This document shows, in pieces, positions 44,335-58,772 of a stretch of DNA of 64,000 nt. Source of the DNA: Streptomyces griseus. GTDB taxonomy: Bacteria; Bdellovibrionota; Bdellovibrionia; Bdellovibrionales; Bdellovibrionaceae. Both the position numbers and the translations under genes were made by a program. Numbering within the stretch: the first letter of the stretch is position 1; each line of letters opens with the position of its first letter. The stretch is from contig CALQIT020000002.1 of the NCBI GenBank assembly GCA_943330705.2, forward strand, positions 1 to 64,000, written 5' to 3'. A model generated the notes under the pieces. It was not told where the DNA came from. It ran no database searches and saw nothing but the letters and a program-made list of their open reading frames with translations.

Positions 44335-44616
44335 CTATATTTTGTCATAGTTTACCGTCAGTGCCTTGCAACCTTCTTTGGGCTTGGCCTGACAAGTTAA
44401 AATTCGCCCCAACTTGACATCACTTTCATCTAAAATAGTATCGTCTGGAAAATCAGTTTGGCCTTCTTCGATAAGTGCTAAACAAGCTGTGCAGACCCCC
44501 TCCATACAAGAATAGGGTGGATTTAGATCTGCCTTAATCGCGGTATCCAGCAAAGTGTCCCCGGCCTGGTATTCGATTTCCTTCTTACTGCCACCGATAA
44601 TAAAAGTGATTTTCAT
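44335..44616 (-). CDS. Plant-type 2Fe-2S ferredoxin
   Basis: A 93-residue electron carrier. The cluster ligands are in YSCMEGVCTACLALIEEG (C-x4-C-x2-C) and, after about 33 residues, RILTCQAKP. The N-terminal KITFIIGGSKKEIEYQAGDT is the usual beta-grasp start. The partner is unknown; the radical SAM gene begins divergently 248 bases away, and radical SAM enzymes do need an electron donor, so a link is possible but not shown. Confidence 0.92.
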   Translation of the reverse strand: MKITFIIGGSKKEIEYQAGDTLLDTAIKADLNPPYSCMEGVCTACLALIEEGQTDFPDDTILDESDVKLGRILTCQAKPKEGCKALTVNYDKI

Positions 44617-44863: not shown

Positions 44864-46150
44864 ATGGAACTGCGCAGATATAAGGACATTCTAGCTCTAG
44901 AGACCGCTCAAGGCGATGTCGTGGGGTTTCATGTGCGAACTCTGGAGATGGCCGAGCTTTCTCCGCAGGCTTGGGCCGCCATGGCAGAAGACACAAGCCT
45001 GCCAAGCAATGCCGAAGCCCTATCGGAAATTGCTACCTGGGAGCAAGAGTCAGCCAACCAGATTCCGGCCAAACATGAATTCAAAATTAAGAATGTCACG
45101 ATCAACGTTACGCAAATCTGTAACTTGCAGTGCAAGTATTGCGCAGCTGGTGGCGACGGCACTTACGGCGATCCGGTGCGGAAAATCTCGGTCGAACAAA
45201 CTCTGCCGCAGATCAAATTTTTTATTGATAAATTGAATCCGGGGGAATCCTTCGCTATCAACTTTCTAGGTGGGGAGCCTTTGCTCTATCCAATCGGAAT
45301 GGAAGCGATTGGTCTGTATGCTAGGCAGTTAGGCCAGGAACGTGGCGTAACGATCCAACTTTCAGTCACAACCAACGGAACTCTTTTTAATGAAGATACT
45401 TTGGCGACGCTAAAGAAAATCAAATGTTCAGTCACCATTAGCATGGACGGCGGAAAAGAAATTACCGATCAAGAGCGTCCATCCAAAGACGGCAAAAGCA
45501 CCTCTGACAAAATCTTGGCTGGCTTACCACTTCTGTTTCAGGCCAAAGCCGAGCTCGGTCGCATTCGCTTTCATGGGGTCTATGGCCGTTTTAATATGGA
45601 CGTGGTGAAAGCTTACCGATTTTTTAGTGAGTTCCCAGTGACCGAATTTGAATTCACCTATGATCACATTGAGGTCAGTGAAGACGTAAATCAGCAGTTC
45701 ATCCAGCAAATGAGTCTAGTTGCGGAAATGGCCTATGATAAGGGCGGCGAAACAGAGCTTCGTCGAATTCGCTTCTTTGATAATATCTTTAGTCGAATTG
45801 ACAATCGGGATCCGGTTCGTCACTACTGCGGAGCTGGCCAAAGCTATCTGATGATTGATGCCAAAAATCAGCTCTATACCTGCCCCTGGGACGTCAACAC
45901 CCCCAGCGAGAAAGTTGGCCAAGGATTGTCACTGGACCATGAAAAATTGGCCAAGTATCAGGGCGATTTGATTGAAAAAAACGACTGCCAAGCTTGCTGG
46001 GCAAAAAACCTTTGCGGTGGTGGCTGCATGTATATACATAAAAACAGGACTGGAAATAAGAATAAGGTTGATTCAAACTTTTGTATGAGAACAAAGCACT
46101 TGCTAGCTCTAGCTCTTTTGTACTATCAAAGAAGCAGAGCGGCGGCGTAA
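44864..46150 (+). CDS. Radical SAM/SPASM peptide-modifying enzyme
   Basis: A 428-residue radical SAM protein. The 4Fe-4S/SAM motif is CNLQCKYCAAGGDGTYGD (Cys86, 90, 93); the residues after the third Cys resemble those of SCIFF/QhpD-type peptide maturases. The C-terminal SPASM region has Cys in HYCGAGQSYLMID, LYTCPWD, DCQACWAKNLCGGGC and NFCMRTKH, enough for two auxiliary clusters. The first 70 residues form a separate domain that may bind a leader peptide. Directly downstream (11 bases) is a 36-codon ORF with a ribosome binding site. This is the arrangement of a RiPP maturase with precursor. Anaerobic sulfatase maturases share the SPASM domain, but no sulfatase is present. Confidence 0.88.
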   Translation: MELRRYKDILALETAQGDVVGFHVRTLEMAELSPQAWAAMAEDTSLPSNAEALSEIATWEQESANQIPAKHEFKIKNVTINVTQICNLQCKYCAAGGDGTYGDPVRKISVEQTLPQIKFFIDKLNPGESFAINFLGGEPLLYPIGMEAIGLYARQLGQERGVTIQLSVTTNGTLFNEDTLATLKKIKCSVTISMDGGKEITDQERPSKDGKSTSDKILAGLPLLFQAKAELGRIRFHGVYGRFNMDVVKAYRFFSEFPVTEFEFTYDHIEVSEDVNQQFIQQMSLVAEMAYDKGGETELRRIRFFDNIFSRIDNRDPVRHYCGAGQSYLMIDAKNQLYTCPWDVNTPSEKVGQGLSLDHEKLAKYQGDLIEKNDCQACWAKNLCGGGCMYIHKNRTGNKNKVDSNFCMRTKHLLALALLYYQRSRAAA

Positions 46151-46161
46151 AGGCGGTAAGT

Positions 46162-46272
46162 ATGGACCCTAAAACTTTAATAGCACCACAGATAAAAAAA
46201 CCTCATGTGAAGAAGCTAGTTGCGAAACCTGCTCCCACCCGCCGTCCTGGATGCATTCCTCAGGGTGAGTAG
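46162..46272 (+). CDS. Putative RiPP precursor peptide, 36 residues
   Basis: A 36-residue peptide beginning MDPKTLIAPQIKKP and ending TRRPGCIPQGE, with nine Lys/Arg residues, six Pro, one Cys (residue 31) and no aromatic residue. AGGCGG precedes the ATG at suitable distance. It begins 11 bases after the radical SAM stop and its last eight bases overlap the likely GTG start of the histidine kinase gene. Small size, position next to a SPASM enzyme, and a C-terminal Cys core after a basic leader fit a ribosomally made, post-translationally modified peptide. A chance frame is not excluded. Confidence 0.5.
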   Translation: MDPKTLIAPQIKKPHVKKLVAKPAPTRRPGCIPQGE

Positions 46273-48118
46273 AGTTGCTTCACTTCTTCGTCACTGGCGA
46301 ACCCACGAGAAATCCTACAACGCCCTGATTCGCTTTAGTCTTGCCACCCTATTGGCTGTTCTGATTAGCCGCGTTTCCGCAGATAGCATTGAAGCCTATT
46401 TTTATGATCTACGTATTTGGTTAAAGCCCCCTGTCGCAACCTCGGGGGCTGTCGAAATGGTGTTGTTTGATCCAACAACGATGGCACAACTTCCAGGATT
46501 GCCAAAAGCAGCGGCGCATTTAAAAGTGGCACAACAAATTTTAGAAAGTGAGCCCCTTGCGATTGTTTACACATTCGATGTGAGCAAAGTAGAAGGCAGT
46601 AGCGACGAAAAATCAGCCCTAGCAGAACTTTTAAAAAATCAAATTTTTGTGATTGCCGACGAAGACCCAGATTTTACCAGCGTAGGAAAAGAAAAACTCA
46701 ACAACCCTTTTAAAGAAACAGCGATTTCTCCCGCGCCATTTACCAGAGACAATAAGTTCGGCGGTAAAGACGGCGTAACACGACGACAAATGCTTTACTA
46801 CCACAACACTTGGATGCTGCACCAAATGCTTGCGGCAAAAATTAATCCTGAAGTGAACGATCTATCTAAGATTCGCGGTCATTTTGAACTCTATCAAGCC
46901 GAACAAACTAACGTTGATTTTCATCGCAAGGGAAGCTTTCAAACTTCAAAATTTGAAAATATATTTAATCACGCCATGGATACCACCCGCTTTAAAGGCA
47001 AAATTGTCCTGATCGGTGATGATCTCAACGAGGACTCAAAGCGCTATATCCTGACCCCCTACGATCGCTCTGTGAATGCAATGACCTTGACCGAGATGCA
47101 CGCCAATATGATTGATACACTGATCAGGAATTCCGCACCGGTGAAGGCCCCCGCATGGGTCAATCTTTTGTTTACAATTCTAATTTCAGTGCTAACCGTC
47201 CATGTGGTTCTTACCGTCAAACCGGGACGGGGTATTTTAATTCTACTTACGACCGCCGCCATTTTTGTGTTTGCTTGTTACATCGCATTTTGGCCCTTTG
47301 GCGTACTTATCGGAATGATCCATCCGATGCTGGCCATTTTTCTCTGTTATTACTTTTTTATTCCCTATCGTCTGATTATTGAAAACCGTCGTAGTTGGGA
47401 ATACTTTCAAAAACATAAACTGCTTTCTGAAGTTGAGACCCTGAAAACAAACTTCATTGGCATGATGTCACATGATTTGAAAACGCCCTTGGCGCGAATT
47501 CAGGGTATGACTGAAATTATTGCGCGGGGTACGACGCCTTTGTCCGCCCCACAAAGTGAAGCGCTTGATACAGTGAAACAATCTGCCGAGGACCTTACTC
47601 GCTTTATAAGCACGATATTAAACTATGCAAAAATCGAATCTCAAGGGGTCGAGCTGCACTTGCAAAGTTGTGATATCAATGAATTGGTCAAAGACGTGGT
47701 AAAAAAATCTGAGTTTTTAGCTAAACTAAAACATATTCAGCTACTTGCCGAACTTGAACCTCTTTTTACTATTCGCATCGATCCCGAGCTGATGAAACAG
47801 GTGCTTAGCAATCTTATTGAAAACGCCATCAAGTATTCTCCGGAAAATTCAAAGGTACTGGTCACCACTGATGAAATTGAAGGTAAAATTGTAGTTCAGG
47901 TGGCTGATCAGGGGATTGGAATTCCGGTTGATGAGCTTCCTAATATTTTTATGAAGTTCTTTCGTAGCAACAACGCAAAGTCGTCGCCAATCAAAGGCTC
48001 AGGCCTGGGTTTATATTTGGCAAAATATTTTGTTGAACTTCATCAGGGCACTATAAGCTGCGAAAGCTCTCCGGGCCAGGGTTCAACCTTCACGGTAGAG
48101 CTTCCTCTTTTGAATTAA
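46265..48118 (+). CDS. CHASE2-type sensor histidine kinase
   Basis: A 617-residue membrane kinase. An N-terminal helix (FSLATLLAVLISRV) is followed by a CHASE2-like extracytoplasmic domain (AYFYDLRIWLKPP, VEMVLFDPTTM, FKGKIVLIGDD, LTEMHANMIDTL), three or more helices (about 300-380) and the kinase core: H-box MMSHDLKTPLARIQ, N-box NLIENAIKYS, G1 DQGIGIP, F FMKFFRS and G2 GSGLGLYLAK. CHASE2 domains sense unknown outside signals. The GTG at 46265 overlaps the stop of the peptide ORF, so coupled translation is likely; a TTG at 46220 is also open. No response regulator is adjacent. Confidence 0.85.
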   Translation: MSRVASLLRHWRTHEKSYNALIRFSLATLLAVLISRVSADSIEAYFYDLRIWLKPPVATSGAVEMVLFDPTTMAQLPGLPKAAAHLKVAQQILESEPLAIVYTFDVSKVEGSSDEKSALAELLKNQIFVIADEDPDFTSVGKEKLNNPFKETAISPAPFTRDNKFGGKDGVTRRQMLYYHNTWMLHQMLAAKINPEVNDLSKIRGHFELYQAEQTNVDFHRKGSFQTSKFENIFNHAMDTTRFKGKIVLIGDDLNEDSKRYILTPYDRSVNAMTLTEMHANMIDTLIRNSAPVKAPAWVNLLFTILISVLTVHVVLTVKPGRGILILLTTAAIFVFACYIAFWPFGVLIGMIHPMLAIFLCYYFFIPYRLIIENRRSWEYFQKHKLLSEVETLKTNFIGMMSHDLKTPLARIQGMTEIIARGTTPLSAPQSEALDTVKQSAEDLTRFISTILNYAKIESQGVELHLQSCDINELVKDVVKKSEFLAKLKHIQLLAELEPLFTIRIDPELMKQVLSNLIENAIKYSPENSKVLVTTDEIEGKIVVQVADQGIGIPVDELPNIFMKFFRSNNAKSSPIKGSGLGLYLAKYFVELHQGTISCESSPGQGSTFTVELPLLN

Positions 48119-48226: not shown

Positions 48227-50755
48227 ATGATAGAAAATAAGGTTCGCAATCAAAGTGGTCTTTCTCTGTCGACTGTTCTGCGCCGGCAAGAAGAAGAGGG
48301 TTTTAATGAATTGCCGACTGCAAAGCCAAAACGTTTTTATCACATTGCCTTCGAGGTCCTTCGTGAACCGATGGTGTATTTGCTTTTAGGCTGCGGCCTC
48401 GTTTACTTTTTCATCGGCGACCAGCAAGAGTCATTCATGTTGCTTGGCTTTCTTGGACTGATCGTTGGTATTACCATCTTTCAAGAGCACAAAGCAGAGC
48501 GAGCACTTGAGGCCCTTCGCGACCTTTCTAGTCCGCGAGCGCAAGTCATTCGGGGTGGGGTTAAACTTCGAGTCGCGGGAAGAGATTTAGTCCGAGAAGA
48601 TTTTATTTTTCTAAGCGAAGGGGACCGTGTGCCTGCCGATGCGGAACTTGTGGATGCGACTCAGGTAAAGGCAGATGAGTCGCTCTTAACGGGTGAATCG
48701 GAGCCAGTGTCTAAAGAGTCTGGAGCCAAAATTTTTGCCGGTACAACGCTGGTCAGTGGACAGGCAACTGCGCTTGTCACCTCGATAGGCCTCGCGACTG
48801 AAATCGGAAAAATTGGAAAGTCTATTCAAGGTGCAATTACTGAGAAGACTAAACTTGAAACGCAAACCAACGAACTCGTTCGCAGAGTTGCTTGGCTTGC
48901 CGCCGTAATTTGCGTTTTTGTTTTCCTTATTTATGCATTAACGCGCACCGATTGGCTTGGGGGGTTGCTTGTTGGCCTAACTCTAGCTATGGCGATTCTT
49001 CCGAATGAGTTACCAGCGGTGCTCACAATCTTTCTGGCTCTTGGTGCTTGGCGAATTTCCAAAAGACGAGTTCTCACTCGTAAACTTCCAGCAATCGAAA
49101 ACCTTGGGGCTGCCAGTGTCCTATGTGTCGACAAGACCGGAACTTTAACTCTCAATCAGATGAAGATTCAGAAGCTTTATTCCAATGGAAAGTTTATCGA
49201 TCTTTCTGACTCGACTCTTAAAGTTCTTCCAGAAGATTTTCACGAAGCGCTCGAATACGGGATTCTGGCAAGTCGTCCTGACCCTTTTGATCCGATGGAA
49301 ATTGCCTTCCTTACGGCAGGTTCAATATTTTTGAAAGGAACCGAACACCATCATCAAGATTGGTCATTAAAAAAGGAATATCCCCTTTCGCCGGATTTGC
49401 TGGCCCTATCTCACGCATGGAAGCCGCAAGATGGCGGAGGATTTGTGGTGGGTGCTAAAGGCGCTTCTGAAGCTATTATCGATCTATGCCATCTTTCGCG
49501 CGAAGATGCTGCAAAAATGAACCAAGTTACCGACGATCTTGCGCGTGAAGGACTTCGAGTTCTTGGTGTTGCGAAGGCAACGTCTCACGTTACTTCTCTG
49601 CCCCTAGACCAACATGACTTCGATTTCACTTTACTTGGTTTTATAGGAATCGCCGACCCGGTTCGTCCTGAAGTCCCCAAGGCAATTGACGAGTGTCGAT
49701 CTGCCGGTATTCGCGTTGTCATGATGACCGGAGATCACCCCATTACTGCGAGCAGTATCGCCAAGAAGATCGGCCTTCAAAACCCCGATCAGGTTATAAC
49801 CGGCGCTCAGTTGAAAGACATGTCTGATTCCGAACTTGCAAACTCTGTGAAGGTTGTAAATGTTTTTTCTCGGGTTGCGCCTGCGCAGAAGCTTCAGCTT
49901 GTGGAACTTCTAAAAGCCCAAGGTGAAGTGGTTGCCATGACCGGCGACGGTGTAAACGATGCACCGGCACTGAAAAGCGCAAACATCGGCATTGCAATGG
50001 GTGGACGAGGAACGGACGTCGCTCGTGAGTCCGCCTCTTTAGTCCTTTTGGACGATGATTTTGGCTCCATCGTCGAAGCGATTCGGATGGGCCGAAGAGT
50101 GTATGCAAATCTTAAAAGCGCGCTGGCTTATCTTTTTGCGGTGCATATTCCCATCGCAGGCATGTCCGTAATCCCAGTTGTGTTTAAGCTTCCTTTAGTT
50201 TTGCTTCCAGCGCACATCGCACTTTTACACTTGATCATTGAGCCCGCATCATCTGTTGCTTTCGAAGCCGACCCAGCAGATGAATTTGTGATGTCGCGGC
50301 CACCTCGAAATCCCCGCGAGCGACTCTTCAATCGTGGACTGTTACTACCAAGTTTTTTGCAAGGGTTAAGTATTTTCGTGGCTCTTCTAATTATTTATTT
50401 AGTCTCACTACAACGGGGGCAAGGAGAAACCGACGCAAGAGCACTGGTCTTTACGACGCTCATTATCTCGAACTTGATGCTAATTCTTATGAATCGGGGC
50501 CCAGAGCGGTCACTTCTAAAAAAAATGACTTCGTTAAAAAACCATATCGTCAAATGGATTGCTTTGGGCTCGTTCGTAGTTTTAGCAACAACCCTCTACA
50601 TCCCAAATCTTCGAGATCTTTATCGACTTTCGAACTTGCATATGAACGATATTGCCATTTGCTTAGTTGCAGGAGTTCTTAGCGTAATCTGGCTACAACT
50701 GCTTCCAACGAAGTGGACCGATCCCGGAAATGGAAAGCCCCCGTTGCTTAGGTAG
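48227..50755 (+). CDS. P-type cation-transporting ATPase
   Basis: An 842-residue inner-membrane pump. The actuator motif is DESLLTGESEPVSK, the phosphorylation site CVDKTGTLTLNQM, and the hinge VVAMTGDGVNDAPALKSANIGIAMG; VVMMTGDHPITA and six C-terminal hydrophobic segments follow. The N-terminal LSLSTVLRRQEEEGFNELP is as in P2/P3 (Ca2+ or H+) ATPases. The M4 segment reads AILPNELPAVLT where Ca pumps have PEGLP and related bacterial pumps PEEFP, so the ion specificity cannot be predicted. AGGAG lies before the ATG. Confidence 0.92.
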   Translation: MIENKVRNQSGLSLSTVLRRQEEEGFNELPTAKPKRFYHIAFEVLREPMVYLLLGCGLVYFFIGDQQESFMLLGFLGLIVGITIFQEHKAERALEALRDLSSPRAQVIRGGVKLRVAGRDLVREDFIFLSEGDRVPADAELVDATQVKADESLLTGESEPVSKESGAKIFAGTTLVSGQATALVTSIGLATEIGKIGKSIQGAITEKTKLETQTNELVRRVAWLAAVICVFVFLIYALTRTDWLGGLLVGLTLAMAILPNELPAVLTIFLALGAWRISKRRVLTRKLPAIENLGAASVLCVDKTGTLTLNQMKIQKLYSNGKFIDLSDSTLKVLPEDFHEALEYGILASRPDPFDPMEIAFLTAGSIFLKGTEHHHQDWSLKKEYPLSPDLLALSHAWKPQDGGGFVVGAKGASEAIIDLCHLSREDAAKMNQVTDDLAREGLRVLGVAKATSHVTSLPLDQHDFDFTLLGFIGIADPVRPEVPKAIDECRSAGIRVVMMTGDHPITASSIAKKIGLQNPDQVITGAQLKDMSDSELANSVKVVNVFSRVAPAQKLQLVELLKAQGEVVAMTGDGVNDAPALKSANIGIAMGGRGTDVARESASLVLLDDDFGSIVEAIRMGRRVYANLKSALAYLFAVHIPIAGMSVIPVVFKLPLVLLPAHIALLHLIIEPASSVAFEADPADEFVMSRPPRNPRERLFNRGLLLPSFLQGLSIFVALLIIYLVSLQRGQGETDARALVFTTLIISNLMLILMNRGPERSLLKKMTSLKNHIVKWIALGSFVVLATTLYIPNLRDLYRLSNLHMNDIAICLVAGVLSVIWLQLLPTKWTDPGNGKPPLLR

Positions 50756-51237
50756 CAAACTTAACTCGTTGGACCGGCGGCGAATTATTTCAGACATACC
50801 TTCAGATAAAGCGGATAATATCGATTTTATTTTAATTCTAAAATACACTTATGGAGTATGATCCATAGACTACCTAAATTATCGAATTCAAATAACTTTT
50901 TCTCATTTGAAGCAGCCTGACCGGCATATTTTTCAGTTGTTTCAGCACATTGGTAAGATCCTATTTGTTCGCTCGCTGCGACCAACTCGCACTCCATGGC
51001 TTCGGCGGCGCTTGCAAGTGTCGCTAATGTGATGACTTAATTGCAATGTATATATTGCAATCCAAATGAGCAGAAAAAATATGAATAAATCCGACAAGGG
51101 CACGTCACTTTTTAACCTGGGAGCCAACTAACTCTCTGATTTCTTGCTTTGTATTGCGGCTTGGCTCTTACCGGGATGTGGAAGCCGCGCTGGGCATTGC
51201 TGATTCAACTTTTGGCGATGCGCTTCGCTTAAGGCGG
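50756..51237. other. Intergenic region with a near-palindrome
   Basis: No convincing gene. TTGCAATGTATATATTGCAA at 51041-51060 is a 20-bp palindrome with one mismatched pair, a possible operator. The text 51130-51235 looks like degraded coding sequence but no protein can be reconstructed. Confidence 0.3.
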
Positions 51238-53214
51238 CTATTGAGCTTTTTGATATTTACTTAACGCCAGCAATGGAAAGGCGTAAGGATAGCTTGGATA
51301 ATTCATGTAGACAATTCCTGGGTGGCCGGTCCCGACGGTTGAAAGATCTGTCCATTTTCCATTTTTTTGCAATTCTGCCTGCAGATAGTAAGCTGCTTTA
51401 TTTGCGCTTTCAGATCGCGCTTCACCAGCGGCAACCAACGCTAGCAGGGCCCATGCGGTTTGTGATGGGGTTGGGTATCCTTTGCCTGCAAAGCCTTGCT
51501 CATTTTTTCCGGCACCAACAAAATAGGACAAAGTTGTTTCACCGAAACTGCCATCAGGTCTTTGCACCGATTTTAGCCACTGAACAGCCTTTTGAATATA
51601 GGCGGCGCCCATGTCCTCTTTAACTTCGTGCAGGCCCACCAAAACAGCACTTGTTCCATAAATAAAATTGACCCCCCAGCGGCCTGTCCATCCGCCAAAG
51701 TTTTTGTTTTGCTGAACCTTTAAATATTTAACCGCTGCTTGGACCACTTTTGATTTTTCTTTTGTCTGGCCAATCAAACCTAAGCCCTCAAGGGCGTGCC
51801 CGGTAACATCTGGCGAGCTTTCGTCAAAAAATGCGACCGAATCCTTAAATGCTTCGAGCACAAAATTGCTAACATCATTCTTTTTGAATAGTCCATATCC
51901 GGTGTTGTTTTTTGCAAAGGCAGCCCAACCACCGTCCGAGTTTTGCATTTCGTAGATAAATTTTTCGCCGTGTTTGATTGCCGCTTCATAGCGTGAACCG
52001 AAGTGCTGCAAGAAGGTGATCATTTCTGCAGTATCATCGACATCCGGTGCATATTCAAAGTCGACGCCAAAAGCCAAACCACCATTTTTTGACTGAACCC
52101 GAACAACCGCATCGGCAGCGGCAATCAGTGATTCCTGCTTTGCGCCAGATTCAAGTAACGCTTGCCCAACTAATATAGTATCCCAGTAACGCCCGTCTTG
52201 GGTTGCTCCTAGGTGATTGGCTGCCCCGTTTGCAAAATACCGATCCTCGATAAATTTAATTCCTTTTTTAATCGCTGGATCTTCAAGACTCATCTTCCCG
52301 GCTGTCGTCAGTGCCATGATATTGAACATCGTCGCCAAGGTATAACCACCCCAGCTGCCCGCAGGCTGTTGCAATGGCATTAGAAACCTGAGTGTGCGCT
52401 GTTCGTCCTTCGCTGAGACCGCACGTGGGATATTTTTTTTGCTAAAATCAGGATCCAGCAGAATAGAAGTTGCCGAGACTCCAATTGAGCGAACAAATTT
52501 GTGATGGCGAAGTACGGCCAACGGCTTTAAATGGGGCCCGACCCATTGTCCAAAGTTCCAGCTCTCGGCAAACATGCTGTTGTCATTCAAGATCAAAGTT
52601 GGGATCGGAATAATTTTCTTTTGCCAATCAATTGCACCGGATGCGGCCAAAAGCATTTTGGTTAGCATATTCCCTTCTTCTGCGCCGCCAACTTGCAATA
52701 TCCATTGCCTAGCTCGGGTAAGTCTTCGGCCAATCTCAAGGCCTGAGATCAATTTAGAAGTGACCGACTGCTCCTGATACTTTTTTACAAATAGATAGTT
52801 CCAAACTGTTGCGTTGATATCTCCGGTTCCAACAATTTTGTCTTCGATTGAAAACCAACTGCCATCAGATCTTTGTGAGTCTAGCAAAAACTTAAGGTGC
52901 GTCTGAATTTGCCCAGGATCATCGCTCATGCCAATCCATTGCTTAAAAAGCAAATACTGAGAGACATAGAACGACCCAAGATATGACGGAAAATCCCAGG
53001 TTCCATCTGACTTTTGTTCGGCAACACAATTAGCCTGAGCCTTGGCAATAGTTTCTGCAACTGAAGGCAATGCCACTGTAACCTGATCCGCAGGCCCTCG
53101 CTGATTCGCAGCAGCTTGGCGCAGATTGCTGCCGCCGATAACACTGCAACCCAACTGACAAGCAACAATTACTGAGAAAATAATATTTGCGGATGAATTC
53201 ATTTTTTTCTTCAC
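51238..53214 (-). CDS. Squalene-hopene-cyclase-like protein with lipoprotein-type signal
   Basis: A 658-residue protein of the terpene cyclase/mutase fold. The catalytic acid motif of squalene-hopene cyclases is present as APDVDDTAEM (about residues 391-394). QW-type repeats are seen: QKSDGTWDF, QRSDGSWF, QQPAGSWGG, QNSDGGWAAF and QRPDGSFG. Unusually the N-terminus is an export signal, MKKKMNSSANIIFSVIVACQ then LGCSVIGG, with possible lipobox Cys at residues 19 and 23. Ordinary hopene cyclases have no such signal. The start is the GTG at 53214, five bases after GGAG. No squalene synthase genes are near. Cyclase activity, with substrate taken from the outer leaflet or periplasm, is an inference. 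Confidence 0.75.
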   Translation of the reverse strand: MKKKMNSSANIIFSVIVACQLGCSVIGGSNLRQAAANQRGPADQVTVALPSVAETIAKAQANCVAEQKSDGTWDFPSYLGSFYVSQYLLFKQWIGMSDDPGQIQTHLKFLLDSQRSDGSWFSIEDKIVGTGDINATVWNYLFVKKYQEQSVTSKLISGLEIGRRLTRARQWILQVGGAEEGNMLTKMLLAASGAIDWQKKIIPIPTLILNDNSMFAESWNFGQWVGPHLKPLAVLRHHKFVRSIGVSATSILLDPDFSKKNIPRAVSAKDEQRTLRFLMPLQQPAGSWGGYTLATMFNIMALTTAGKMSLEDPAIKKGIKFIEDRYFANGAANHLGATQDGRYWDTILVGQALLESGAKQESLIAAADAVVRVQSKNGGLAFGVDFEYAPDVDDTAEMITFLQHFGSRYEAAIKHGEKFIYEMQNSDGGWAAFAKNNTGYGLFKKNDVSNFVLEAFKDSVAFFDESSPDVTGHALEGLGLIGQTKEKSKVVQAAVKYLKVQQNKNFGGWTGRWGVNFIYGTSAVLVGLHEVKEDMGAAYIQKAVQWLKSVQRPDGSFGETTLSYFVGAGKNEQGFAGKGYPTPSQTAWALLALVAAGEARSESANKAAYYLQAELQKNGKWTDLSTVGTGHPGIVYMNYPSYPYAFPLLALSKYQKAQ

Positions 53215-53494
53215 GAAACTCCATTCACCCAAGGCCGCGGCGCGATCGCAATTTTCCGGGGCAAACCAAATTCTATTTTGCTTTGGCTAACCTTAGTTTA
53301 GTTTAGCAAACGAACTTCACAGCGAAAATGCAGCAATAGCTTTTTGGGCCTTAGTCTGACCTAATCTGAGATCCCAGAATCCAACCCAATCGCTATGGGT
53401 TCTTGGATGTCTCATTTTAGTCTCAGAATGAAAATAGCTAAATATCTAGGTCCAGTTGGCCGATTGGTAGGAAGTAGAAATCAGGAGGCCGGAT

Positions 53495-56400
53495 ATGAAT
53501 TTCAAGTCGATTGCTTCAGTGGGTCTAGTGCTTATCGCATTTGCTCTTGCAGCCTGCACCCGCCAGGATGCGACTAAGGCGACTGTGAATATCGCAATTC
53601 CTCAGAAGATGAATTCCAACAAGGTTGGGGCCTTTGCCGCTGACGATACTCTGATGCGCGTGACGATCAATGTTTCTGGACCCGGCCTTCCTGGACCAAT
53701 TTTGATGAACTGGGACGCTTGTCGCGATTGCCCTGCCGATACGGGATCCTTTGCAAGTCTGTTCGTCGATGTCCCAACTGGTGACAATCGCTTGTTTCAA
53801 GTTTTGGCTGTCTATAAATCAAGCTCTACTAAAACCATGAGTTTCTATTATGGTGAGGAAGCAAAATCACTAGTTACAGCACAAGAGGCAATTAAGATAA
53901 AAGTCAATTCGGTCTCTCAGGGATTGCAGGTCGTGCAGGGGCAAGTTTCTGGTCGTCTTTTGGATACGGTAGCAACCGGCCCGACTGATGAAGTTGAAAT
54001 CCGCTACAATCCGGGGGACGGCAAGCCCTCGCTTATTATTGATCGCAGTTACATTCTTAACGGATGGTTTCGCTTTTTCATGCTGACCGGAGTTGCCTTT
54101 GAATATCGGACAAAATCAGGCGGACTACTTTTTGGTGGCCCCGTCAGTTTAGATTCACCACAATTTGCAGTTGGCGGCGACCGAAATCGACGTTTAAAAA
54201 TGATGATCCCCGTGCATTTGCGGCAGCAGTATGGCAATGCGCCGGCGGGTACTTATTCTCCGGACGAAGCGATGATCTACGTTTGGGGAATTTGGGGCGA
54301 CGCTAGCGTCATTTCAGACCGCGCTGTTTGTCCAATAAACATGTTTGCTGGGTTTACGAAAATGAAAGCCTATACCACCGGTACCACTTACACCAACTTA
54401 GCCACAAGCAATGTAACAGCTTTAACAATTGCCGATCTTTTGAATACAACAACGCCTAAGAATTATGCCTATTACGACGGGGGCGCAGCAGTTTCCGTTG
54501 CCGGTGGAGTCACCACTTGCGATGGCACGGTAATGGATGAATCTTCAGTTGCAACTGGAACCTTATATCGTAAGCACTACAAAGTTGATATCGCCTATGC
54601 CGATGGTGATGGAAAAGATAGTGCCGCAGGATTTTACGGACCCTATCGACGGCTAAGCAACGGACGTGGTGTCAGCAGCGCTGTTGTTAATAACGCCACA
54701 GAAGTTTCTGGAATCCTTTTACCCGGATTATCTGGAATGTTTACCCAATTCACGTTATTCAAACGACCGATCTCTGCCGGTACTATCGTTGAGTCCTACA
54801 TCGATAGCGACGAGATTGACTGCCGACAAGTCGCAGCCGGTGCAGGTCGATTCGCTGGTTTTGTGCCAGCCGGAGAGACCACCCCCAACGCAAGTGGAGA
54901 ATTCAAAATCGTTTCTAACATTAGCGCAGCCGAAGCTTCATCTGGCGTAAATGGAATTCTTTGCCCTTCAATTGCCGGAGTCATGATAAAACAGGGCGGC
55001 TTTATGGACCGATGCTCTCTGGGCGGCTGCGTTGTCGGAAACTCGAATCCTCCAGCCAAATTAGCTGTCAGAAAATTAGACAACAATCCAAACTATTCTA
55101 GCTCTGGCACATGTGAGCGGCTAGAATACCGTCTTCAAGACAGCACTAGCAAAGATACTACAAATAACACCGGCGCAATTATTTCAATGGTGGCCACAGC
55201 GACGGTTGTATCAGGGAATTTTTACAATGATTTGAACAGCTGCATGGCTAGCACAGGCGCCAACTCCAACATCATATTTCCAATTGGTATTGGATCTGTC
55301 TCTAAAATTTTCAAAGCTACTACCAGTTCAATCGACTACTCAGCATTGGGAGTCACTAGCTTGCCAGCCTCACTGACCGCGTTCCCTGCAAATGTCAAAT
55401 TTGTAGATCCTACAGGCACTACAAGAATTTTTCAATTCAACCTGCCGAGCACCCAGCTGGCACCGGGAATTTGTTATCCAATCTATTGGAAGATCAGCAA
55501 AGTCGATGGCTCTAACGATACAACCTGGATTTCTGGAACTGTTACTGTTACTGTCACTGCGACCTCAGCAGGTGCAGACCCTGTTTTATCAACAACGTCC
55601 AACTGCGCATCCCCAGCAAACGTTATCAACCCAAGTTACTCGACCACTAACACTGGTATGTTTTATATGATGATCCCTGCGGGGACACCGTCAGGCACCG
55701 GGTACACCATAAATATGACCAAATCTACCATATATGGAACCCAGCTCTTTTTGGCAGGCTCTGGCGGATCTTCGATCGACCACTTTATCGTTCGCGGCAT
55801 GAGCAACATGACCCAGAACACGTGTAATAGTGTCACGATCATACCGGTTAACAATGCGGGAATTCCGATACCAGCTCCGGCTGGATTTACGGGATCGCTG
55901 CTTCCGGCAAATGGTGCGGCATCGTCTTTCTTTTCAAGTAGCGCCGACTGTGTCGCTTCGACTCCGCAGACCACTACAGTTACGTTTGCGATTGGCGATG
56001 TTTCGCGAATTGTTTATTTCAAAGGTATGTCGCTCGGTTCATATACGATACTAGCTCAAGCAACCGTCAGCGGCGTCAATACAGTTACCGGACCTGAGTG
56101 CAATAGTGGATGTCCGACGGGGCTGATTGCCAATGTTACCGCTCCGCCTATGGCCGTAGCCGGGAACTCTTTACTTTGGATGTCTCGAAGTGTTGTTTTC
56201 CAATCAAGCCCCAATACGAGTGTCGATCTTTCTGTGATGGGAAGGGACGGCACCAATATGAATGTTGATAGCTGCAGCAACGGTGATAGCGTCAGCATGG
56301 CAAAAGGCGGCATTGGTTCGGGCAACGTGACTCTGGCTTGCGCTACACAACAATATCAAGGGACTATTACCCCAATCTCCAGCGCTGGTAACCTGACTAT

Positions 56401-56773
56401 CGCCACGACAATCAATGGGATTGCAGGACCAACTGGCACGATCGTGTCGTTAGCCCAACCAGCTTACATCTGGAATGGAACTACCGTTACCGGAGGTGGC
56501 ATGGTTGACTTTGGCACAGTCTCCATTGCTCACCCGTCTGTTGCACGAATCGCATTTACCAATTCGACAGGTGGAACCATAACGTTCACGATCACAGCAT
56601 CAGGAGATTATGCTTATAGCGCTGGAAACTGCGGTGGATCGCTAACCATCGGAGCCGCTTGTGAATTTGATATTACGTTCAATCCGACGGCCAGTGGAAC
56701 ACGCGCAGGGGGTGTGACATTTAGTAGTGGGATTACGGGATCAATTCCCTTCACTGGAATCGGGGCACCTTAA
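53495..56773 (+). CDS. Large lipoprotein with C-terminal choice-of-anchor D domain
   Basis: A 1092-residue lipoprotein: signal MNFKSIASVGLVLIAFALAAC with a good LAAC lipobox. The long middle part is Ser/Thr/Gly-rich and beta-rich with about 25 Cys. The last 95 residues form an ASPM-SPD-2-Hydin/choice-of-anchor-D-type domain: VDFGTVSIAHPSVARIAFTN, FTITASGDYAYS and CEFDITFNPTASGTRAGGVT. Such proteins are usually on the cell surface. The ribosome binding site is AGGAGG. It is divergent from the cyclase-like gene, 280 bases apart. Function unknown; adhesion or prey contact would be speculation. Confidence 0.75.
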   Translation: MNFKSIASVGLVLIAFALAACTRQDATKATVNIAIPQKMNSNKVGAFAADDTLMRVTINVSGPGLPGPILMNWDACRDCPADTGSFASLFVDVPTGDNRLFQVLAVYKSSSTKTMSFYYGEEAKSLVTAQEAIKIKVNSVSQGLQVVQGQVSGRLLDTVATGPTDEVEIRYNPGDGKPSLIIDRSYILNGWFRFFMLTGVAFEYRTKSGGLLFGGPVSLDSPQFAVGGDRNRRLKMMIPVHLRQQYGNAPAGTYSPDEAMIYVWGIWGDASVISDRAVCPINMFAGFTKMKAYTTGTTYTNLATSNVTALTIADLLNTTTPKNYAYYDGGAAVSVAGGVTTCDGTVMDESSVATGTLYRKHYKVDIAYADGDGKDSAAGFYGPYRRLSNGRGVSSAVVNNATEVSGILLPGLSGMFTQFTLFKRPISAGTIVESYIDSDEIDCRQVAAGAGRFAGFVPAGETTPNASGEFKIVSNISAAEASSGVNGILCPSIAGVMIKQGGFMDRCSLGGCVVGNSNPPAKLAVRKLDNNPNYSSSGTCERLEYRLQDSTSKDTTNNTGAIISMVATATVVSGNFYNDLNSCMASTGANSNIIFPIGIGSVSKIFKATTSSIDYSALGVTSLPASLTAFPANVKFVDPTGTTRIFQFNLPSTQLAPGICYPIYWKISKVDGSNDTTWISGTVTVTVTATSAGADPVLSTTSNCASPANVINPSYSTTNTGMFYMMIPAGTPSGTGYTINMTKSTIYGTQLFLAGSGGSSIDHFIVRGMSNMTQNTCNSVTIIPVNNAGIPIPAPAGFTGSLLPANGAASSFFSSSADCVASTPQTTTVTFAIGDVSRIVYFKGMSLGSYTILAQATVSGVNTVTGPECNSGCPTGLIANVTAPPMAVAGNSLLWMSRSVVFQSSPNTSVDLSVMGRDGTNMNVDSCSNGDSVSMAKGGIGSGNVTLACATQQYQGTITPISSAGNLTIATTINGIAGPTGTIVSLAQPAYIWNGTTVTGGGMVDFGTVSIAHPSVARIAFTNSTGGTITFTITASGDYAYSAGNCGGSLTIGAACEFDITFNPTASGTRAGGVTFSSGITGSIPFTGIGAP

Positions 56774-56837: not shown

Positions 56838-57242
56838 TCGCAGGCATGGCGCCGGGGCTCTAAGTCATGGTTAAATTACTACGATCGGGACCTCTTTGTA
56901 TTTGGTCCATGCCGTAGACCGAAGCCTGCCTCTTGCCTTCGCCTGAGCCATTTAACTGAGCCGTGAATTTTTTTCGCGACCCATTTGTCAGGGTTTGAGT
57001 CATCGCCCGTCTTTGGGAAGCAAATTTTACCTTATAATTTCAATATGTTAGCGCCGACCAGGGGGCCTCTCGTGCGCCCCTCTGCCTTTTTCTGGCGGAA
57101 TTAAGATTCTCCTACGTTTGCCTTTATCCTAGTGAAATCATTGGATTAGAGTTGATACTCGGGGAAAGCTGCTTTCAGGTATGGCAGGAACTGTGTTATA
57201 TATGCGAATCACCCTTTTTTACGGGTGCCTGTGGAGGATCCT
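56838..57242. other. Intergenic region before the NtrC-type regulator
   Basis: No gene is seen. AGGGGGC...GCGCCCCT near 57059-57082 followed by TGCCTTTTTCTGG is a weak terminator candidate. CACCC/GGGTG (57210-57227) is a short hairpin just before the regulator's ribosome binding site. Confidence 0.3.
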
Positions 57243-58772
57243 ATGCTTCGTGTCCTTGTGGCTGATGATGATCATGGCTTGCGGCTTTCGGTAAGGTCTG
57301 CGCTGGCATTGGATGGACGATTTGCTACGGATGAAGCTATTGATGGACTTACCGCAGTCGAACAAGCCAAAGTGACCCAATATGATATTGCGATTCTTGA
57401 TGTCGATATGCCACGACTTAACGGGCTTGAAGCGCTTCGCCAAATTAAAGAACTAAATCCCGGCACTGTGGTTATCATGATGACAGCTTTTGCAACCATC
57501 AATGACGCCGTTTCTGCAGTCAAGGACGGGGCCTACAACTACCTTTCGAAACCAGTTCAAGGCGACCATTTGATTGCCTTGATTGACCGCGCCCTTGCGG
57601 CAATGAATTTGATTTCAAATGTTGCGGCCTCAGCGCCAATGCTGATGGACGATGGTCGTAAGATGATTGGCAATAACTCGCATATGCAAAAAGTTTTCAA
57701 TGTGATCAGCCGGGTTTCTAAGGTTGATACTCCAGTTTTGATCCGCGGCGCTTCTGGAACCGGAAAAGAACTTGTGGCCCGAGCGGTCCACGCAAACTCG
57801 GCCCGTAAGGACGAAAAATTTGTTGCGATCAATTGCTCGGCGATACCGGAAAACTTGTTTGAGTCCGAATTGTTTGGCCACGAAAAAGGCTCGTTCACTG
57901 GCGCTGATCAGCGCAAAATCGGCAAGTTCCAATTCGCCGAAGGCGGCACCTTGTTTTTGGATGAAGTTGGTGATTTGCCTTTATTGATGCAGGTAAAATT
58001 GCTGCGCGTTTTACAAGAAAAAATGTTTACCCCAGTTGGTGCCAACCGCGAAATCCCAACCAACGTTAGAATTGTTGCCGCCACCAATCGGCCACTGGAA
58101 GAAATGATTAAGCTTGCCACTTTTCGCGAAGATCTTTTCTATCGCCTAAATGTAATACCCATCTTGTTGCCCTCGCTGATGGATCGCAAAGATGATTTAG
58201 ACAAATTGATGACTATGTTTATCAAAAAATTTAATGCAGCCCACAGTAAACGTATTGGTGGCGTGGCTGCCGATGCTCTGGCCGTCCTCAAGCGCTACGA
58301 GTGGCCAGGGAATATCCGCGAACTTGAAAACGTTATCGAGCATATGTTCATTATGGAAAATGCAAAGCTTCTGACTTTGGGGTCCATTCCCGAATCACTA
58401 TTGAAAGCAACCGGCACCTTTCTGCCAGAGTTTCCACAAACTGAAGCGACCCTAAGCACTACCGTTTCCGAGTCTAGCTTTGCAGCTTCTGGCCTTGATC
58501 TTGAAGACGACACGCTTGGCTTTGATTCTTCAGATGATTTGGATATTGATGATGACTTCCTGGAACCCATTGCCGGAGCGCCTACCGGGGACGGTGGACC
58601 AATGGATTTCAATGCTCAAAAAGAGACCTTTGAAAAAGACTTTATCATTAAAGCGCTGAAAACTTTTAAGGGTCGTATCAATCAAACAGCCTTGCATGCG
58701 AATATTCCGAAAAAGACTTTACTAAGAAAAATCGAAAAGTACGGAATTGTCGCTAAAGACTATACCCTTTAA
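57243..58772 (+). CDS. Sigma-54-dependent response regulator, NtrC family
   Basis: A 509-residue regulator. Receiver domain with VADDDHG, Asp53 in AILDVDMPRLNG and Lys in YLSKPVQG. The AAA+ domain has Walker A GASGTGKE, the sigma-54 contact loop EKGSFTGAD (GSFTGA in place of the usual GAFTGA), and the arginine-finger/sensor region PTNVRIVAATNRPLEE. A long acidic linker (LEDDTLGFDSSDDLDIDDDF) precedes the Fis-type HTH (GRINQTALHANIPKKTLLRKIEKYG). The ATG at 57243 has GGAGG six bases away. The target genes and cognate kinase are not evident. Confidence 0.93.
   Translation: MLRVLVADDDHGLRLSVRSALALDGRFATDEAIDGLTAVEQAKVTQYDIAILDVDMPRLNGLEALRQIKELNPGTVVIMMTAFATINDAVSAVKDGAYNYLSKPVQGDHLIALIDRALAAMNLISNVAASAPMLMDDGRKMIGNNSHMQKVFNVISRVSKVDTPVLIRGASGTGKELVARAVHANSARKDEKFVAINCSAIPENLFESELFGHEKGSFTGADQRKIGKFQFAEGGTLFLDEVGDLPLLMQVKLLRVLQEKMFTPVGANREIPTNVRIVAATNRPLEEMIKLATFREDLFYRLNVIPILLPSLMDRKDDLDKLMTMFIKKFNAAHSKRIGGVAADALAVLKRYEWPGNIRELENVIEHMFIMENAKLLTLGSIPESLLKATGTFLPEFPQTEATLSTTVSESSFAASGLDLEDDTLGFDSSDDLDIDDDFLEPIAGAPTGDGGPMDFNAQKETFEKDFIIKALKTFKGRINQTALHANIPKKTLLRKIEKYGIVAKDYTL

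Follow-up and report, generated by a model that had tools for sequence, protein, structure and literature searches.

A candidate radical SAM RiPP family with single-cysteine precursor peptides encoded next to a CHASE2 histidine kinase in Bdellovibrio-type bacteria

Comparison of homologous loci demonstrates that a 36-codon open reading frame (ORF) in the 64,000-nucleotide stretch of DNA analysed here (the window) is a real gene, inherited with an adjacent gene for a radical SAM/SPASM enzyme. The two likely belong to a new family of radical SAM RiPP precursors and maturases, with modification (probably a thioether) at a C-terminal cysteine and possibly a role in signalling together with a neighbouring kinase and response regulator; the chemistry, export, and sensing are at most inferred. 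The enzyme (positions 44864 to 46150, forward strand, 428 aa) has SPASM-type cysteines and is a probable peptide maturase, as judged from its Pfam Radical_SAM match, an orthologue alignment, and an AlphaFold model. It is followed after 11 bases by the precursor peptide gene (46162 to 46272, forward strand; 36 codons with an ATG start, MDPKTLIAPQIKKPHVKKLVAKPAPTRRPGCIPQGE), which is preceded by a plausible ribosome binding site, AAGGCGG, and is kept at homologous loci under purifying selection. A CHASE2 sensor histidine kinase (46265 to 48118, forward strand) is read in a different frame from a likely GTG start at 46265 and overlaps the peptide gene by 8 bases (46265 to 46272); its Pfam domains are CHASE2 (4.4e-21), HisKA (1.1e-16), and HATPase_c (3.6e-30). 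The order of the three genes, the 11-base gap, the ribosome binding site, the GTG start, and the overlap are thus all as the first-pass annotation had described them.

The 36-residue peptide matched no family in domain and profile searches (Pfam and NCBIfam), and the case for it comes from related loci. Relatives repeatedly carry, 3' of the enzyme gene, an ORF of 30 to 80 residues with H-[IV]-K-K-[IV]-K-P near its N terminus and G-x-G-C-[IVL]-P near its C terminus, giving a layout of a conserved basic N-terminal motif, a freely variable spacer, and a tail of the form G-x-G-C-[IVL]-P-x-[RG]. In the window, the N-terminal motif takes the form H-V-K-K-L (46204 to 46218, forward strand), identified from the alignment and codon tables and proposed to be what the enzyme recognises, and comparison of distinct peptides places the tail, with its single cysteine, at P-G-C-I-P-Q-G-E (46246 to 46269, forward strand), the proposed modified core. 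When loci were scored mechanically for an ORF of 20 to 90 codons just 3' of the enzyme with C-x-P no more than 14 residues from its end, a qualifying ORF was present at 67 of the 73 distinct loci. Dinucleotide shuffles predict 4.5 such loci, and the antisense strand gives 5; the C-x-P tail and the N-terminal motif occur together at 57 loci, against 0.22 expected from shuffles of the 73. The six exceptions, all in family f4, have an MK[HN][IV]KK start and a C-P-E or similar tail, and since they were recognised through the N-terminal motif they are weaker evidence.

All but one of the 66 distinct C-x-P peptides contain one cysteine, and the several-cysteine criterion of ranthipeptides is not met. 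Glycine is found at -1 relative to the cysteine in 41/66, glycine at -3 in 44/66, and isoleucine, valine, or leucine at +1 in 50/66. One genome (locus L126) has two tandem, non-identical precursor peptides between the enzyme and the kinase, and no such peptide was found upstream of 12 kinases that lack the enzyme. At L059, in the one well-assembled genome of the window's own family (f1) that lacks the enzyme (G007), the place of the peptide before the kinase is taken by a 42-aa, Gly/Asn-rich ORF with KPPF repeats.

Selection was assessed in ten Bdellovibrio genomes with enzymes 73 to 100% identical to the reference enzyme. Over the aligned peptide, pN/pS is 0.28, and the changes are unevenly placed: the block GEGCIPVR has no non-synonymous changes, and the block HIKKxKPxKP has only I/V and L/Q replacements at two positions, both blocks having many synonymous changes while the spacer changes freely. 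Across all loci, the tail proline uses all four of its codons and the cysteine both, and because C and P are fixed by the search pattern, it is their codon use and not their identity that is informative. The pattern is that of a leader, a spacer, and a core, as far as aligned codons can define one. In principle, the ORF could serve only the translation of the kinase, as a leader or for coupling, with the enzyme acting on another target, and the 8-base overlap with the kinase start in the window would suit such a role; this is very improbable, however, as amino acid conservation is seen at both ends of the peptide across families, including positions irrelevant to coupling, many relatives have a gap between the peptide and kinase genes, and one genome has two tandem copies. 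The first-pass annotation had inferred the peptide to be the substrate of the enzyme, and had asked for purifying selection and a conserved C-terminal core in relatives, with absence or breakage of the ORF beside the enzyme, or a lack of codon-level conservation, as grounds for rejection. Neither ground applies: the ORF is present between enzyme and kinase homologues, both signatures are found, and the conserved tail holds the single cysteine; the substrate assignment is strongly supported by the retention of the ORF beside the enzyme and by its codon-level conservation, but it has not been shown chemically.

The enzyme carries the radical SAM motif CNLQCKYC (C86-x3-C90-x2-C93) and the seven SPASM cysteines for two auxiliary clusters, C322, C340, C375-x2-C378-x5-C384-x3-C388, and C407, all of which are invariant among 34 orthologues, in agreement with its earlier description as a SPASM-type radical SAM protein with a CxxxCxxC motif. 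Pfam Radical_SAM matches the window's protein at 4.5e-16 and all 34 members of the set, and the Pfam SPASM profile itself matches only one (0.011). The best NCBIfam match is the PapB ranthipeptide maturase (NF047865; 1e-49), with a score of 169.6 bits against a cut-off of 340, and the SCIFF maturase profile scores 127 bits against a cut-off of 425; neither ranthipeptide maturase cut-off is reached, and no curated family claims the enzyme. Because all 34 members behave alike, with PapB best at about half of its cut-off, the enzyme is placed by its sequence in an unnamed subfamily of probable radical SAM/SPASM peptide maturases. The AlphaFold model (pLDDT 91) is closest among solved folds to CteB (5wgg; whole-chain TM 0.83/0.81). 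CteB is likewise the top PDB profile match (4.7e-48), with an identity of only 21%; SPASM enzymes with a wide range of chemistries, among them cyclophane formers and an epimerase, match at lower scores. The N-terminal domain is modelled as four strands followed by two helices, with A30 invariant, and this strand-rich arrangement is compatible with a leader-binding (RRE) domain, although a direct fold test was non-significant: searched in isolation against the PDB, the domain had no significant match, and the RRE of TbiB1 ranked fourth (E 0.33).

These systems thus resemble those of the PapB and other ranthipeptide maturases in pairing a radical SAM/SPASM enzyme with an adjacent short precursor that has a C-terminal cysteine, and resemble the CteB/SCIFF (six-cysteine) maturase in fold. 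They differ in that the enzyme falls far below the PapB family cut-off and is distant from CteB, and in that the precursor has one cysteine, unlike the six of SCIFF precursors, and lacks the Cys-x3-Asp repeats of PapB substrates. In the proposed mechanism, the enzyme would recognise the H-[IV]-K-K-[IV]-K-P motif and modify the tail at its single cysteine, joining its sulfur to a carbon close by, in the backbone or in a side chain. The most likely product is a thioether, because the nearest relatives by both profile and fold, PapB and CteB, are thioether-forming maturases; this remains an inference from relatives that use several cysteines or a Cys-x3-Asp motif, both missing from this peptide, and the tail has no invariant acceptor other than proline. 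Some other radical modification, such as epimerisation, a carbon-carbon bond, or decarboxylation, with the cysteine serving as a ligand, a thiol, or a later attachment point, is conceivable given the varied chemistries of the lower-scoring matches. It is nonetheless unlikely, with thioether-forming or cysteine-targeting enzymes at the top of both the profile and fold comparisons and with few tails (8/66 distinct peptides) containing an aromatic residue in the last 15 positions, which argues against cyclophanes.

Parallels also exist with systems that have short precursors or regulatory outputs. Single-cysteine streptococcal sactipeptides (streptosactin GggB and similar) likewise have a short precursor with few cysteines and a regulatory link, and the GggB profile matches 31 of the 34 enzyme members weakly; the precursor sequences are unrelated, however, and the streptococcal systems have an adjacent exporter, which is lacking here. 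In the epipeptide system EpeX/EpeE, a two-component system responds to the effect of a radical SAM-modified peptide, with epimerisation as the modification and exporter genes present; the EpeX core is longer and without the cysteine tail described here, and EpeE is only a distant structural match to the enzyme. The ends of small peptides are the source of mycofactocin and PQQ, and the modified tail could similarly yield a small redox cofactor, or another metabolite, instead of a signal, as might suit a short conserved C-terminal tail present in single copy, near-fixed in a family, and without an exporter. Such a fate is improbable, as the generally conserved neighbours include no peptidase, dehydrogenase, or other gene for cofactor synthesis, and the tail has neither the Tyr/Glu pair of PQQ precursors nor the Val-Tyr of mycofactocin.

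The window's genome has one copy of the enzyme gene. Orthologues with 35 to 53% identity occur throughout the window's family, and some of the order's other families have them as well. Within the class, 81 of 144 genomes have an orthologue, including 60 of 66 in f1, all 13 in f10, and 8 in f4. Among the six f1 genomes without one, four are assemblies less than 75% complete, and in another (G069) the kinase lies at the end of a contig; G007, which is 99% complete, seems to be a true absence. Gaps at contig ends (L046 and G069) were not scored as losses. In the phylum outside the class, only two distant enzyme matches were found, neither with a tailed peptide beside it, and a contig scan with the single protein as a query returned only one remote Clostridium match. 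In the genus that apparently includes B. bacteriovorus HD100, the enzyme-peptide pair is present in 23 of 24 sampled genomes, and the 24th assembly breaks at the kinase.

An orthologue of the kinase lies directly 3' of the peptide at all 54 loci with enough downstream sequence, in three families, and it is typically followed by a sigma-54-dependent response regulator, a protein of ∼190 aa with unknown function, and commonly genes for IleRS and LspA (both named from sequence); a penicillin-binding protein gene is often found upstream of the enzyme locus. The regulator directly follows the kinase in nearly all relatives, and in the window it is displaced to 57225 to 58772 (forward strand; Response_reg 5.2e-26, Sigma54_activat 1.6e-71) by an inserted block (48227 to 56773) that codes for a P-type cation ATPase, a 664-aa secreted squalene-hopene-cyclase-like protein (reverse strand), and a 1,092-aa lipoprotein-like protein; from these domains and the synteny it is the probable partner of the kinase. 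Two predation-induced two-component genes, Bd3359 and Bd3360 (PMC2797640), may be this kinase/regulator pair, which is not claimed here, as another two-component pair is close by; in one relative's genome, the enzyme lies ∼33 kb before a flgE gene, and Bd3395 is flgE (PMC11656739, PMC2277423).

The first-pass annotation saw no exporter or peptidase next to these genes, and across relatives, too, the neighbours that are generally conserved in synteny include no exporter, peptidase, or immunity gene. Several genes recur at a minority of loci. A 2Fe-2S ferredoxin (Fer2, 4.2e-14) is encoded divergently upstream of the enzyme in the window (44335 to 44616, reverse strand) and is counted at 11 loci in the synteny comparison; a role as electron donor to the enzyme is possible and unproven. 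Six loci, among them L034 (3444 to 4753), have divergently oriented genes upstream of the enzyme for a secreted metalloprotease of the matrixin type (HExxHxxGxxH), possibly a processing protease, and for a partner of ∼220 aa. At L023 (3796 to 5757) and seven similar loci, the gene immediately preceding the enzyme, in the same orientation, codes for an exported protein of ∼650 to 800 aa without a Pfam match.

The modified peptide would work with the CHASE2 kinase and sigma-54 regulator as a regulatory or signalling peptide and not as a secreted antibiotic, a less well supported step that is proposed because exporter, peptidase, and immunity genes are not among the generally conserved neighbours and because the system, close to fixation in one family, lies beside housekeeping genes. 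The link between kinase and peptide, and with it the first-pass suggestion that the kinase may sense the mature product, rests on adjacency alone and is weaker than that between enzyme and peptide, since the kinase and regulator also occur without the peptide. The pair is found in several families that lack both enzyme and peptide, and the kinase tree requires several gains or losses of the enzyme, from which the two-component pair is inferred either to predate its link to the peptide or not to depend on that link; the kinase therefore cannot depend on the peptide everywhere. Enzyme and kinase distances are correlated (r 0.75, Mantel p 0.0005), as fits common inheritance, but this may reflect only shared ancestry and is no proof of interaction.

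A serious contender, at somewhat below even odds, is that enzyme and peptide form a RiPP pair for which the kinase is merely a co-transcribed neighbour, the pair having been inserted before an old kinase/regulator operon and using its transcription. Families without the enzyme or peptide have the kinase orthologue together with the regulator, IleRS, and LspA genes, and a rough census finds kinase-like matches in essentially all genomes of the class, as this would predict; it accounts less readily for the direct adjacency at every checked locus in three families, and for the presence of another RiPP-type enzyme in the same slot elsewhere. In three genomes of the sister families f8 and f9 (L062, L067, and L068), which lack the radical SAM enzyme, a graspetide-type ATP-grasp gene lies directly before the orthologous kinase, in divergent orientation, with matches to MvdD (4.5e-38), MvdC, and SAV_5884-type proteins that are all below NCBIfam cut-offs. 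Short basic, Lys-rich ORFs between the ATP-grasp and kinase genes are unproven precursor candidates. The likeness to graspetides (the MvdC/MvdD family) is thus one of position before the kinase, and the chemistry differs; if a precursor were established there, a different peptide-modifying chemistry before the same kinase would be the strongest hint that kinase and modified peptide belong together. A broader and more speculative view, for which there is only tentative support, is that a core, vertically inherited peptide-signalling system of Bdellovibrio-type predators feeds a modified peptide into the CHASE2 kinase/sigma-54 pair, with lineages swapping the chemistry between radical SAM and graspetide-type ATP-grasp enzymes.

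The kind of system, a radical SAM RiPP, is already known. The precursor sequence, its GC[IVL]P tail with one cysteine, and the subfamily to which the enzyme belongs appear to be undescribed, as does the setting, which is close to fixation, linked to a kinase, and without an exporter; literature searches yielded no description of the system and, as the first-pass annotation had supposed, no RiPP class with such a precursor, with most subscription papers outside their coverage. Precursors with one cysteine and a GC[IVL]P tail would escape searches for multi-cysteine precursors. A near-fixed, single-copy modified peptide in predators, tied to a kinase and without an export cassette, would, if confirmed, suggest that a RiPP acts in regulation inside the cell or at its surface, and the peptide gene offers a gene-sized, testable handle on predatory regulation.
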